Source of the DNA: Ruminococcus bromii
Lineage (GTDB): Bacteria; Bacillota; Clostridia; Oscillospirales; Acutalibacteraceae
Assembly (NCBI RefSeq): GCF_002834225.1
Contig: NZ_NNSR01000072.1
Coordinates: 62,001 to 126,000, forward strand
Direction: 5' to 3'
DNA length: 64,000 nt
Every line of letters begins with the position of its first letter. The stretch's first letter is position 1. The notes beneath the pieces are model-generated. The model was not told the DNA's origin and did no database searches. It saw only the letters and a program-made list of their open reading frames with translations. The translations under genes were made by a program, and so were the position numbers. Below are positions 829-50,140 of this stretch, piece after piece.

Positions 829-2496
829 ATGCTCAGAACTTTATATATAGAAAACATTGCCGTGATTGAAAAAACTTCAATAGATTTTGAAAACGGTCTT
901 AATGTCCTCACAGGTGAAACAGGTGCAGGTAAAAGTATAATAATTGACGCAATCAACGCAATTATGGGACAGCGTACATCAAAGGAAATTATTCGCACCG
1001 AGGCTGATTCAGCCTTTGTAAGCGCCCAATTTGACGATATTAACCAAAGCATTGTTGAAAAGCTTGATGAACTCGGCTTTTCCGATGACGAGGGAATGCT
1101 CATTTTGCAGAGAACTCTCAACAGAAACGGCAAGAGCAGTTGTAAAATCAACGGAAAGCCTGCAACGGTTTCAATGCTCAAGGAACTCTCAAAGCATCTT
1201 ATAAACATTCACGGTCAGCACGAAAGCTACGAACTTTTCTCTTCCGAAACTCATATTGATTATATTGACCGTTTCGGCGGTTGTGAAAAGCTTTTGACTG
1301 ATTATAAAAAATGTTATGATGAATATAAAATTCTCAAAAAGAAATTAAATTCAGCCGATTCGGACGAAAGTGAAAGATTGAAAGAAATTGATTTACTTTC
1401 ATATCAGGTAAATGAACTCACAGAATCCGATGTTAAGCAGGGCGAAGAACAGGAGCTTGAGAGCGAAAGAACAGCGCTTATGAGCTTTGAGAAAATCTTT
1501 TCTCTGCTCAATGATGCTAAAATGGCTCTTGACGGTGACGAAAACTACGGCGGCGGTCTTGAATCGGTCGATTCTGCATCAACTGCCCTTCAAAAAGCGT
1601 CATCATATAATGCTGAATATGAAGAAATTGCAAATACGCTTACAGATGCATATTACAATTTAAAGGATTGTTGCGACAGCATTTCCGACGCTATTGATTC
1701 GCTTGAATCAGATCCACAAAGGCTTGAAGAAGTTGAAGAAAGGCTTGACCTTATCAACCGTCTTACAAGAAAATATAATTGCCCGTCAGACGAGCTTTCG
1801 GAACTTGCCGAAAAATATCAGGCAAGACTTGACGAACTTGTGAACTATGACCGCAACCGTGACGAGCTTGCGGAAAAATGCAGAGAAAGCGAAGAAAAAA
1901 TGCTTGCGGCTGCCGAAAAACTCGGTACTCTCCGCAGAAAAACCGCAAAAACCTTTGCAACAAAAGTAAAATCCGAAATGGCATTTTTGAATATGCCGAA
2001 TGTTGAGCTTGTTCCGTACTTTGAAAAGTGCGAACCAAATTCAAAGGGTACGGATAAAATGGAACTGCTCATCTCCGCAAACCCGGGTGAAACACCTCGC
2101 CCTGTTGCAAAAATCGCATCGGGCGGTGAGCTTTCAAGAATGATGCTTGCAATTAAAACTGTTCTTGCAAGCACGGATACGGTTGATACCCTCATTTTTG
2201 ATGAGGTTGACACAGGTATTTCGGGTTCAGCGGCAGAAAAGGTCGGCTTAAAACTGCGTGAAGTCAGCAAAAGCAGTCAGGTTCTCTGCGTAACACATCA
2301 GGCACAAATCGCCGCCCTTGCCGATTCTCACTATCTTATCCGCAAACAGGTTGAAAAAGGAAGAACATTTACAAATGTAACCCTCCTTGACCATAACGGC
2401 AGAGCAGGCGAGCTTGCACGAATAATCGGCGGTGTTGATATAACCGATGCCGCACTTAAACATGCAGAATCAATGCTTGAAAAGTACAATAACTGA
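829..2496 (+). CDS. recN: DNA repair protein RecN
   Basis: SMC-like ATPase recruited to double-strand breaks. The 555 residues fit the family. Walker A GETGAGKS is at residues 29-36. A long coiled coil fills the centre, and the C-terminal half carries the ABC signature (SGGELSRMMLAIK) and Walker B (LIFDEVDTGISG). I chose ATG 829 because AGGAC at 816-820 is a well-spaced ribosome site and RecN proteins begin this way; an in-frame TTG at 811 would overlap argR by four bases. It is followed within 20 bases by an unrelated-looking small-gene cassette. Confidence 0.95.
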   Translation: MLRTLYIENIAVIEKTSIDFENGLNVLTGETGAGKSIIIDAINAIMGQRTSKEIIRTEADSAFVSAQFDDINQSIVEKLDELGFSDDEGMLILQRTLNRNGKSSCKINGKPATVSMLKELSKHLINIHGQHESYELFSSETHIDYIDRFGGCEKLLTDYKKCYDEYKILKKKLNSADSDESERLKEIDLLSYQVNELTESDVKQGEEQELESERTALMSFEKIFSLLNDAKMALDGDENYGGGLESVDSASTALQKASSYNAEYEEIANTLTDAYYNLKDCCDSISDAIDSLESDPQRLEEVEERLDLINRLTRKYNCPSDELSELAEKYQARLDELVNYDRNRDELAEKCRESEEKMLAAAEKLGTLRRKTAKTFATKVKSEMAFLNMPNVELVPYFEKCEPNSKGTDKMELLISANPGETPRPVAKIASGGELSRMMLAIKTVLASTDTVDTLIFDEVDTGISGSAAEKVGLKLREVSKSSQVLCVTHQAQIAALADSHYLIRKQVEKGRTFTNVTLLDHNGRAGELARIIGGVDITDAALKHAESMLEKYNN

Positions 2497-2516
2497 TTTT
2501 GAAAGGAGTAACGAAT

Positions 2517-2786
2517 ATGACGAATGAAGCAATATTAAGCAGTAACGGAAATTATACACTATTCAGCTTTAACGGCTATGTTATCAGATTCAGAACTTCA
2601 TCAAAACTCGAAAGATATACAAAAATACTTGAATGGGAAAACGGTTATATTGCAGTGACAGCAAAATATAAAGGGCTTCCCGAAGAAGAAGAATATATAG
2701 ATTTAGTGCCGATTCTTGAAAATCTGTATATTGATCCTGATGAATTTTTAAAACAGATAGAGAAAGTGAGAATCAGTTATGATTGA
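2517..2786 (+). CDS. Small hypothetical protein, first of a three-gene cassette
   Basis: I do not recognise this 89-residue protein with certainty. It has no signal peptide, membrane segment or cysteine pair and looks like a small soluble alpha/beta protein. The C-terminal half (YIDLVPILENLYIDPDEF and following) loosely resembles the DUF2442 pattern in which a beta strand leads into a D-L-x-P-L-L helix; this is inference only. Start ATG 2517 is chosen because GAAAGGAG (2501-2508) lies 8 bases upstream; an in-frame TTG at 2499 would lie before that ribosome site. The stop overlaps the next gene by 8 bases, so the two are probably translationally coupled. Confidence 0.75.
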   Translation: MTNEAILSSNGNYTLFSFNGYVIRFRTSSKLERYTKILEWENGYIAVTAKYKGLPEEEEYIDLVPILENLYIDPDEFLKQIEKVRISYD

Positions 2787-14023: not shown

Positions 14024-14052
14024 GAATAATTTTATTTAATTCTCCGTATAAA
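14024..14052 (+). promoter_or_regulatory. Possible sigma-E-type promoter for yabP
   Basis: GAATAAT (14024-14030) and CGTATAAA (14045-14052) are separated by 14 bases, the spacing used by sporulation sigma-E; the -35 fits KMATATT at 6 of 7 positions, the -10 fits CATACAAT at 5 of 8. A start near 14059 would fall in the loop of the hairpin at 14042-14077. Weak on its own. Confidence 0.3.
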
Positions 14053-14085
14053 TTACTGATAACTAATTTGTACGGGGGTTTTTTT
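14042..14085 (+). terminator. Terminator hairpin that contains the yabP ribosome site
   Basis: Bases 14042-14055 pair with 14064-14077 over 14 bp (two G-U wobbles) around an 8-base loop, followed by seven T (14079-14085). The GGGGG ribosome site of yabP (14074-14078) lies in the 3' arm, and the T-tract runs directly into the yabP ATG at 14086. It should both end rqcP transcripts and hide the yabP ribosome site in any read-through RNA. Confidence 0.85.
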
Positions 14086-14358
14086 ATGCAGGAAACGCCA
14101 AAGGTTAAGAATCACACAGTAATGCTTGATAACAGGGGAAAGCTTGTCATGACAGGTGCGGAGGATGTGCCGGGCTTCAACGAAGAAACCGTTTCTGTCA
14201 AGACCTCATGCGGATGCCTTGTGATTAAGGGTGAAAATCTTCATATTGACAAGCTTAACCTTGAAACGGGTGATGTGTCCATTGACGGCAAAATTAACGC
14301 AATGCAGTATTTGGGCAGCGGTGCGTCAAAATCAAAGCTTTCAAAACTTTTTAAGTAG
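14086..14358 (+). CDS. yabP: Sporulation protein YabP
   Basis: A 90-residue YabP-family protein, in Bacillus needed for spore cortex and coat assembly and made in the mother cell. The family features HTVMLDNRGKLVMTGAEDV and TSCGCLVIKGENLHI are present. ATG 14086 is chosen over an in-frame TTG at 14068, which lies inside the terminator stem. The ribosome site GGGGG is part of that hairpin, so expression should depend on structure or on a promoter inside it. yabQ begins 9 bases after the stop. Confidence 0.9.
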   Translation: MQETPKVKNHTVMLDNRGKLVMTGAEDVPGFNEETVSVKTSCGCLVIKGENLHIDKLNLETGDVSIDGKINAMQYLGSGASKSKLSKLFK

Positions 14359-48372: not shown

Positions 48373-48930
48373 ATGATATCAGCAGGTGATTTCAGAAACG
48401 GCGTTACATTTGAAATGGACGGTCAGGTTGTATCAATCATTGAATTCCAGCATGTAAAGCCAGGTAAGGGTGCTGCATTTGTAAGAACTAAAATCAGAAA
48501 TGTTATTACAGGCGCAGTAGTTGAAAAAACTTTCAACCCGAACGATAAGTATCCCACAGCTTTCATTGACAGAAAGGATATGGAATACAGCTATTCAGAC
48601 GGCGATCTTTACTACTTCATGGATACAGAAACATGGGAGCAGATCCCGATTAACAAGAGCGTTCTCGGCGACAGCTTTAAGTTTGTTAAGGAAAATATGG
48701 TGTGCAAGGTTCTTTCTTACAAGGGCAATGTATTCGGTATTGAGCCTCCGAACTTTGTTGAACTTAAGGTTACAAAGACAGATCCCGGCTTTAAGGGTGA
48801 CACAGCAACTAACGCTACAAAGCCTGCAACTCTTGAAACAGGTGCTGAAATTAAGGTTCCCCTCTTCATTGACGAGGGCGAGGTTATTCAGATTGACACA
48901 AGAACAGGCGAATATATGGGCAGAGCTTAA
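48373..48930 (+). CDS. efp: Elongation factor P
   Basis: Rescues ribosomes stalled on polyproline. The 185 residues are full length: KOW-like domain 1 with the loop lysine K32 in KPGKGAAF, then two OB domains ending [18 protein letters not shown]32 is the position modified in other species, by 5-aminopentanol in Bacillus; modification here is unknown. TAGGAGGT precedes the ATG. The acidic zinc-ribbon gene follows 20 bases later. Confidence 0.97.
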
Positions 48931-48950: not shown

Positions 48951-49439
48951 ATGAATCTTACTGAAAAAATTTCTTACATTCGCGGTCTTTGCGACGGCCT
49001 TGAGCTTGATGAGTCAAAACCTGAAGTAAAGGTTATTAACGCAATCGTTGATCTTCTTGATGATATGGCTTTTGAAGTATCCGATATGGAGGAGCTTTAC
49101 GATGAGTTAAGCGCTCAGGTTGACGAAATTGATCAGGATCTTGCTGATGTTGAGTCTGATGTTTACGATGACGAGGACTATGACATTGAAGATTATGACG
49201 ATGAAGATGACGACTATGATTTTGATGATGAAGAGAATCCTTTTTATGAGGTAACTTGCGATTCATGCGGTCAGAAGCTTAATGTTTCCGAAGATGTCCT
49301 TCTTGAAGGCGAAATCGAATGTCCAAACTGCGGTGAAAACCTCGAGTTTGATTTTTCAAATCTCTTCAGTGATGAGGAAGATGACGACTGTGATGTCGAT
49401 TGTGCATCATGCGGCGGTTGTTCGGACACAGAAGAATAA
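48951..49439 (+). CDS. Acidic CD1247-type zinc-ribbon protein
   Basis: A 162-residue protein of unknown function. The N-terminal ~45 residues (ISYIRGLCDGLELDES and following) match the CD1247 N-terminal domain widespread in Clostridia. A long Asp/Glu tract covers residues ~60-98, then a zinc ribbon (CDSCGQ and CPNCGE pairs), and a last Cys cluster CASCGGC near the end. No membrane segment. It follows efp by 20 bases and is closed by a terminator that also carries the yunB ribosome site. Confidence 0.85.
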   Translation: MNLTEKISYIRGLCDGLELDESKPEVKVINAIVDLLDDMAFEVSDMEELYDELSAQVDEIDQDLADVESDVYDDEDYDIEDYDDEDDDYDFDDEENPFYEVTCDSCGQKLNVSEDVLLEGEIECPNCGENLEFDFSNLFSDEEDDDCDVDCASCGGCSDTEE

Positions 49440-49450
49440 TTAACAAAACA

Positions 49451-49486
49451 AACACCCTTCGTATAGTATATACGAGGGGTGTTTTT
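49451..49486 (+). terminator. Terminator hairpin that contains the yunB ribosome site
   Basis: AACACCCTTCGTATA (49451-49465) pairs over 15 bp (one wobble) with TATACGAGGGGTGTT (49469-49483), loop GTA, with T-tract 49482-49486. The yunB ribosome site GAGGGG (49474-49479) is in the 3' arm and the ATG (49487) follows the T-tract at once, the same layout as at yabP. Confidence 0.88.
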
Positions 49487-50140
49487 ATGTTGTACAGAAA
49501 AAGATGTAAAAGAAAATTTGTTCTTTTAAAGAAAATACTTCTTACTGTTGTTTTACTGATTATCGGTGTTACTGTTTTCTGCGAAGTGCATTTGTCAGAT
49601 TTCAGACCGGAGTACATAAGAATTCAGGCTGAAATATTGTCTGTAAATTCTGTCTGTGACGCAGTGAACAATACACTTGACAAGCTTAATTATTCTTACA
49701 GCGATATTGCAAAGATCAATTGTGATACAAACGGAAATGTGCAGTCCATTGAAACGGATTCATTCAAAATCAACAGAATTAAAGCCGACATCACGAAAGC
49801 TGTTCAGAAGGAAATAGCTAAGGTATATGACAATGAAATTGAAATACCTCTCGGTGCATTTACGAATATTACAATACTCTCAAATGTCGGACCTTGCATT
49901 CCCGTGAATTTTAACCTTACAGGAAGCTTTTCCTCGGAGGTTATAAGTACATTTGAACAAGCGGGAATAAATCAGACAATCCACCATATAAAGCTTTTGT
50001 TTACCTCAAAAATAATGACAACCTCGCTTGATTATTCAGGCAAAATAACATTTACTACCGATTTTGAAATTGCACAATCCGTAATAGTCGGTAATATACC
50101 GTCCGGATACGGTTCTCTGTTTCAGACTTATAAGAAGTAA
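49487..50140 (+). CDS. yunB: Sporulation protein YunB
   Basis: A 217-residue membrane-anchored protein: basic N terminus, a transmembrane segment at ~14-32, and the YunB domain with IEIPLGAFTNITILSNVGP, FEQAGINQTIHHIKL and QSVIVGNIPSGYG. In Bacillus yunB is sigma-E controlled and needed for full spore yield. ATG 49487 is used since MLYRKRCK begins the family match; longer in-frame starts lie inside the upstream gene. Its ribosome site is masked in the hairpin at 49451-49483. Confidence 0.9.
   Translation: MLYRKRCKRKFVLLKKILLTVVLLIIGVTVFCEVHLSDFRPEYIRIQAEILSVNSVCDAVNNTLDKLNYSYSDIAKINCDTNGNVQSIETDSFKINRIKADITKAVQKEIAKVYDNEIEIPLGAFTNITILSNVGPCIPVNFNLTGSFSSEVISTFEQAGINQTIHHIKLLFTSKIMTTSLDYSGKITFTTDFEIAQSVIVGNIPSGYGSLFQTYKK

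Follow-up and report, generated by a model that had tools for sequence, protein, structure and literature searches.

In phage T4, a hairpin at the late genes e, soc, 49 and I-TevI sequesters the Shine-Dalgarno (SD) sequence in long early RNAs, and the DNA encoding its 5' strand also contains the late promoter, so that late RNAs begin downstream of that strand and are translated (PMC3014915). In Bacillus subtilis, a large hairpin at sigG (spoIIIG) was proposed to block translation of the spoIIGA-sigE read-through RNA, and it cannot form in the RNA made from PsigG, as summarized in passages of PMC5942855 that cite older work. The masking principle is thus already known, having been shown in phage T4 and proposed for one Bacillus gene. 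For Clostridioides difficile, sigma-E and sigma-K promoters have a common -10 element and differ in the -35 element, which is ATA for sigma-E and AC for sigma-K (PMC3789822). For Ruminococcus bromii, 73 genes of sporulation and germination are reported, and the full set of sporulation sigma factors is among them (PMC5814915).

The yunB gene of R. bromii was analyzed within a window of 64,000 nucleotides, the whole stretch of DNA under study, and the features discussed are collected in Table 1. The DNA is that of R. bromii or of a nearly identical strain, since the nearest public YunB, with 99% identity, belongs to R. bromii strain 5AMG. As in the T4 late genes, the SD of yunB is sequestered in the long RNA (here by prediction, at 19.4 kcal/mol, and with covariation), and the putative promoter lies in the 5' strand. 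However, the T4 genes use a phage late sigma factor, whereas in R. bromii sporulation sigma factors would act on chromosomal genes, at several genes and in several species, and a terminator T-tract directly before the start codon, as present at yunB, is not described for T4. With sigG, yunB shares a sporulation function and read-through from a close upstream operon, and its SD, too, would be masked in the long transcript alone. The sigG case concerns one gene and a hairpin of 20 or more bp upstream of the start site; in contrast, the clade of R. bromii has a compact hairpin with the putative -10 inside the anti-SD arm, often with a terminator too, at many sporulation genes. The GC-rich stem and T-tract resemble ordinary intergenic intrinsic terminators, but at yunB the 3' arm holds a conserved SD, the 5' arm a conserved sporulation-type -10, and the T-tract continues into the start codon. 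A search of the open-access literature turned up no account of such a layout for yunB, yabP or spoIIR; the novelty seems to lie in the compact three-in-one element and in its repetition at sporulation genes among relatives of R. bromii.

Table 1. Coordinates of the features discussed; positions are those of the window unless a locus label precedes them.
Feature	Position	Strand	Remarks
efp	48373-48930		just upstream of the CD1247-domain gene
Gene for protein with CD1247 N-terminal domain and zinc ribbon	48951-49439	+	NF045650; co-directional with and upstream of yunB
Putative yunB -35, AACA (AC at 49443-49444), sigma-K-type	49442-49445	+	17 nt before the -10
yunB hairpin, 16 bp, 3-nt loop; with T-tract (49482-49486) an intrinsic-terminator structure	49450-49484	+	
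yunB hairpin 5' arm (AAACACCCTTCGTATA): anti-SD and first part of the putative -10	49450-49465	+	
Putative yunB sporulation -10, TATAGTATA (consensus YRTANNATR), spanning 5' arm, loop and 3' arm	49462-49470	+	
yunB SD region, GAGGGGTG, in hairpin 3' arm	49474-49481	+	opening energy 19.4 kcal/mol in long RNA
yunB, sporulation protein YunB, 217 aa	49487-50140	+	TIGR02832, above cut-off
Putative yabP promoter, sigma-E-type: -35 GAATAATT (14024-14031), N13, -10 CGTATA (14045-14050)	14024-14050	+	
yabP hairpin masking SD CGGGGG, then T-tract up to ATG at 14086	about 14041-14078	+	
yabP, sporulation protein YabP	14086-14358	+	TIGR02892
spoIIR	L142:17496-18095	-	
288-aa protein, unmatched in Pfam and NCBIfam	L144:8267-9130	-	conserved in 55/60 congeners
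murA	L148:5135-6385	+	
oadG-like gene	L243:19140-19218	+	
spoVAD	L250:9289-10296	-	
hcp (hydroxylamine reductase)	L261:1045-2715	-	
dacF-like D-Ala-D-Ala carboxypeptidase gene	L332:~1501-2701	+	

The gap between the stop codon of the CD1247-domain gene and yunB is 47 nt, and most of it is occupied by the hairpin AAACACCCTTCGTATA-GTA-TATACGAGGGGTGTTT, which forms 16 pairs, one of them G-U. Directly 3' of it stand TT and the ATG of yunB, so that the T-tract abuts the start codon; a GC-containing stem of 16 pairs followed by 5 T is the structure of an intrinsic terminator. The folding energy of the region was -26.4 kcal/mol, in comparison with -10.0 ± 2.6 kcal/mol for shuffled sequences (z = -6.2; 0 of 200 shuffles). 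The initial annotation had described a 15-bp hairpin with GAGGGG in its 3' arm, a T-tract touching the ATG and a CGTATA core in the 5' arm, repeating the layout of yabP. The hairpin exists but has 16 pairs rather than 15; GAGGGG(TG), the T-tract and CGTATA were all found where described, and yabP had the same layout. The annotation had also found no clear -35 at the spacing of yabP; this was right, and yunB carries the motif of the other mother-cell type, with AC at 16-17 nt.

Conservation was investigated in 70 upstream regions of yunB orthologs from one broad genus, with protein identity down to about 25%. The layout was kept across about 70 congeneric species, with compensatory changes; CACCTCTCGTATAnnnTATACGAGGGGTGTTTTTTTG was common to most orthologs, the T-tract was near-invariant, and the start codon was often a TTG within it. 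In the 43 orthologs aligned as compact rows, 88.9% of the cells were paired, against 37-66% when the arms were slid by 1-3 columns, and 37 cells were changed on both sides of the stem, against 9.5 in shuffles; these figures, like the other ortholog figures given here, are descriptive, as related species were counted as independent. G-U pairs were frequent in the yunB stems, with, for example, C-G 21 times and U-G 20 times at one pair.

The promoter motifs were conserved at fixed positions. YRTANNATR was present in 68 of the 70 orthologs (in an alignment anchored on the element), and AC stood 16-17 nt upstream of it in 59 of 68, against 12 or fewer at any other spacing. The form TANNNT[AG] was found in 68/68 orthologs, with and without the hairpin. 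The CGTATA core was retained in L050, L051 and L054 despite decayed pairing, and the subclade that lacks the compact hairpin kept CATANNNTR, with an unchanged distance to its SD, GAGGTGAT. In one subclade, GGACAA, which resembles a SpoIIID box, was also seen upstream of yunB (ATCAAGGACAACACC), adjoining the inverted repeat.

At yabP, which is preceded by hup and an S4-domain gene, ATA-N16-CGTATA occurred with constant spacing in 24/30 orthologs, and in the five orthologs L106, L108, L109, L111 and L112 the promoter match and the masking were lost together. Since yunB has AC and yabP has ATA, and these match the two C. difficile -35 types, the yunB promoter looks sigma-K-type and the yabP promoter sigma-E-type. 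Judged by its motifs (the -10 and the AC or ATA -35, at fixed spacing within or beside the 5' arm), the putative stage-specific promoter is so placed that its RNA would lack the 5' strand of the hairpin. From the spacing, the yunB start site is predicted at about 49474-49478, at the SD, which would give the native RNA a leader of about 10-13 nt without the anti-SD arm. The hairpin would be unable to form in RNA from these predicted starts, and opening the SD would cost 3-6 kcal/mol, in comparison with 17.5 kcal/mol in the long form.

Taken with its conservation, this arrangement suggests that the yunB hairpin has two jobs. It would be the intrinsic terminator of the growth-expressed upstream unit (efp and the CD1247-domain gene), and, in read-through transcripts, the 5' arm of the hairpin would pair with the SD and block translation. 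The putative mother-cell promoter lies across the hairpin with its -10 inside the stem-loop, so the RNA made by the sporulation polymerase would begin at or near the SD without the anti-SD arm and would be translated from a very short leader. We consider it probable that the element is such a terminator with a second role as mask of the SD in read-through transcripts, and that the mask is lifted because sporulation RNA starts inside the hairpin. The same fusion appears to recur at yabP (sigma-E-type), spoIIR (sigma-F-type) and the gene of a 288-aa protein, and to a varying degree at murA, spoIIM, ylmC/ymxH, spoIIP and the dacF-like gene. A few masked genes without a known sporulation role, and the extreme shortness of the predicted yunB leader, speak against the two-job reading.

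The hairpin might instead be only the terminator of the upstream operon, its G-rich 3' arm doubling as an SD for the economy of a compact genome, with masking unselected. The GC-rich stem and T-tract at yunB agree with this, and so does the dependence on the upstream gene. The gap to a CD1247-like gene could be measured for 62 yunB orthologs. It was 45-95 nt in 52 of them, so that a close co-directional upstream unit was usual, and none of these 52 fell below 9.6 kcal/mol (median 17.5); the other 10, with a gap above 150 nt, ranged from 1.1 to 14.1 kcal/mol, mostly with a weak hairpin. This gap dependence agrees with masking of read-through RNA, and a terminator role alone would predict it too. 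However, at yabP and at the gene of the 288-aa protein, SD/anti-SD pairing was kept even in species that lack a proper U-tract there, the arm was fused to a sporulation-type -10 in several unrelated genes, and L054 and L055 retained the yunB hairpin despite a separate terminator immediately upstream of it. In addition, the most masked genes were dominated by sporulation genes, although all operons need terminators. A terminator and nothing else is therefore unlikely, and because masking occurs without a proper U-tract and is fused with the -10, these patterns favour masking as a selected function.

Three other explanations are less probable still. TTAACA-N16-TATAGT (49440-49467) matches 10/12 positions of the sigma-70 consensus and could be a housekeeping promoter driving yunB, the hairpin being unrelated to sporulation; yet the final T of TATAAT varies between orthologs, while TANNNT[AG] and the AC at 16-17 nt are kept as described above, which makes this very improbable. 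Masked SDs are the usual targets of control in trans, and a small RNA, protein, temperature or metabolite might open the hairpin in RNA that holds both arms. Stems of 9-16 pairs with 3-nt loops offer little to act on, the promoter is located inside the arm, no alternative structure or conserved ligand-like element was seen, and Rfam gave only sub-threshold, chance-like matches at yunB, with no family at gathering score, and no matches at all at yabP; such a switch is hardly to be expected. The inverted repeat across the promoter, with the SpoIIID-like box beside it in one subclade, could also be a DNA operator for a sporulation regulator. However, the maintained G-U pairs and compensatory changes fit pairing in RNA better than a symmetric site in DNA, and the arm sequences differ between genes, so that an operator is extremely improbable. 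A sigma-A promoter, a DNA operator and a riboswitch were rejected for the yunB element on this evidence.

To place the terminator-and-mask reading in the genome, SD masking was scored as the predicted cost of opening the SD within RNA from -80 to +25, in 864 kb (about 40% of the genome; 40 stretches of 20 kb and the 64-kb window) holding 749 genes, whose calls were crude, being ORF-based with starts picked by SD energy and not by structure. yunB ranked 1/749 at 19.4 kcal/mol and yabP 9/749 at 13.0 kcal/mol, against a sample median of 3.45 and a 95th percentile of 8.1. By NCBIfam, 8 of the 30 most SD-masked genes were sporulation genes (yunB, spoVAD, spoIIR, yabP, GerXA-like, spoIIGA, ylmC/ymxH and spoIIP), against 0/20 random genes. 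The hypergeometric probability was 2e-6 to 1.5e-3 if 26-60 of the 749 are sporulation genes, which is an estimate, and 1e-4 to 0.017 without yunB and yabP. Median opening costs among orthologs were 16.7 kcal/mol for yunB (n = 70), 15.1 for spoIIR (n = 30), 14.0 for the 288-aa protein (n = 30), 13.0 for yabP (n = 30), 10.2 for murA and 8.3 for spoIIM, whereas control genes taken from these loci (miaB, CD1247, efp, rqcP, hup and yabQ) had medians of 2.8-4.3; for a transcript beginning just before the SD, the cost was about 2-3 kcal/mol.

The initial annotation had suggested that a common device prevents the expression of sporulation proteins during growth, and had named an equal frequency of the pattern at vegetative genes as evidence against it. 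The scan supported the proposal: the pattern favoured sporulation genes, and the neighbouring vegetative genes were unmasked. Its outline needs refining. The conserved core is the anti-SD arm fused to a sporulation-type -10, and not the U-tract, which was constant at yunB, variable at yabP and absent or weak at other masked genes. Besides mother-cell genes, the forespore genes spoIIR and spoVAD were masked, and so were a few apparently vegetative genes, such as hcp and the oadG-like gene. High scorers without a known sporulation role were hcp, an oadG-like gene and an 85-aa ORF. GCAGATAATA was seen in the SD-masking hairpin of both hcp and spoVAD, which possibly belong to one promoter class. 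At the oadG-like gene the anti-SD lay upstream of a sigma-A-like promoter, and the masking logic may thus also serve a growth gene.

The fusion of anti-SD and -10 was also found at spoIIR, the 288-aa protein, ylmC/ymxH and the dacF-like gene, and in weaker form at murA, spoIIM and spoIIP. The spoIIR gene lies directly downstream of ispE, and in several relatives its putative -35 (GAATA) overlaps the end of ispE, with the -10 within the anti-SD arm. The pairing CCTGTCCATA.../GGACAGGTTTTTT was present across the genus with compensatory changes; 25 cells were changed on both sides against 7.8 in shuffles, and 91.9% were paired against 30-51% after sliding. Masking was found in 21/30 genomes across the family, nearly all of them of other genera. 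Such family-wide masking makes biological sense because SpoIIR made early would be expected to activate sigma-E prematurely.

The gene of the 288-aa protein had CCTCCATAAAATG.../TATGGAGG genus-wide, an arrangement in which a mother-cell-like promoter and an SD-masking hairpin are fused. The predicted structure of the protein was mostly beta with modest confidence (pLDDT 66), and a Foldseek search with this model against the PDB gave no match with E below 0.001; from its upstream region, the protein is a candidate new sporulation or spore-coat protein. murA, in the cluster ftsW-murG-murA-ftsQ-ftsZ, was preceded by the conserved sporulation-type promoter CATAGAATA, its hairpin being more variable. 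As many relatives have a second murA, the cluster copy may serve cortex synthesis.

Whether relatives of R. bromii possess a general translational firewall is evenly balanced in our judgement. It would consist of forespore and mother-cell promoters (sigma-F, sigma-E, sigma-K and perhaps sigma-G) inside start-codon anti-SD arms, which would block the synthesis of key developmental proteins, the commitment signal SpoIIR included, from read-through RNA in growth, even though only tens of bases separate their genes from the growth genes upstream. If this is true, compact genomes of spore formers place dangerous developmental genes right behind growth genes free of leakage, one short element serves as terminator, SD mask and developmental promoter, and the mechanism shown in T4 and proposed for sigG would extend to many genes. 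The element also flags candidate sporulation genes from sequence, such as that of the 288-aa protein, and yields start-site predictions for R. bromii, for which we found no start-site maps.

A covariance model of the yunB element was searched against the whole R. bromii genome. yunB was the sole strong gene-linked match, and most other matches were plain terminators; a single homologous RNA family was rejected, and the device is therefore a design that recurs with different sequences. One weak match (L332) was the dacF-like gene, which follows ispD/ispF and has SD, terminator T-tract and ATG fused in the same layout as at yunB. spoIIM was downgraded from a strong member, as its median rested at the low value given above and masking was seen in about half of its orthologs. 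Its leader (upstream regions L152-L181) contained a conserved GGACAA(C/G), which resembles a SpoIIID box.
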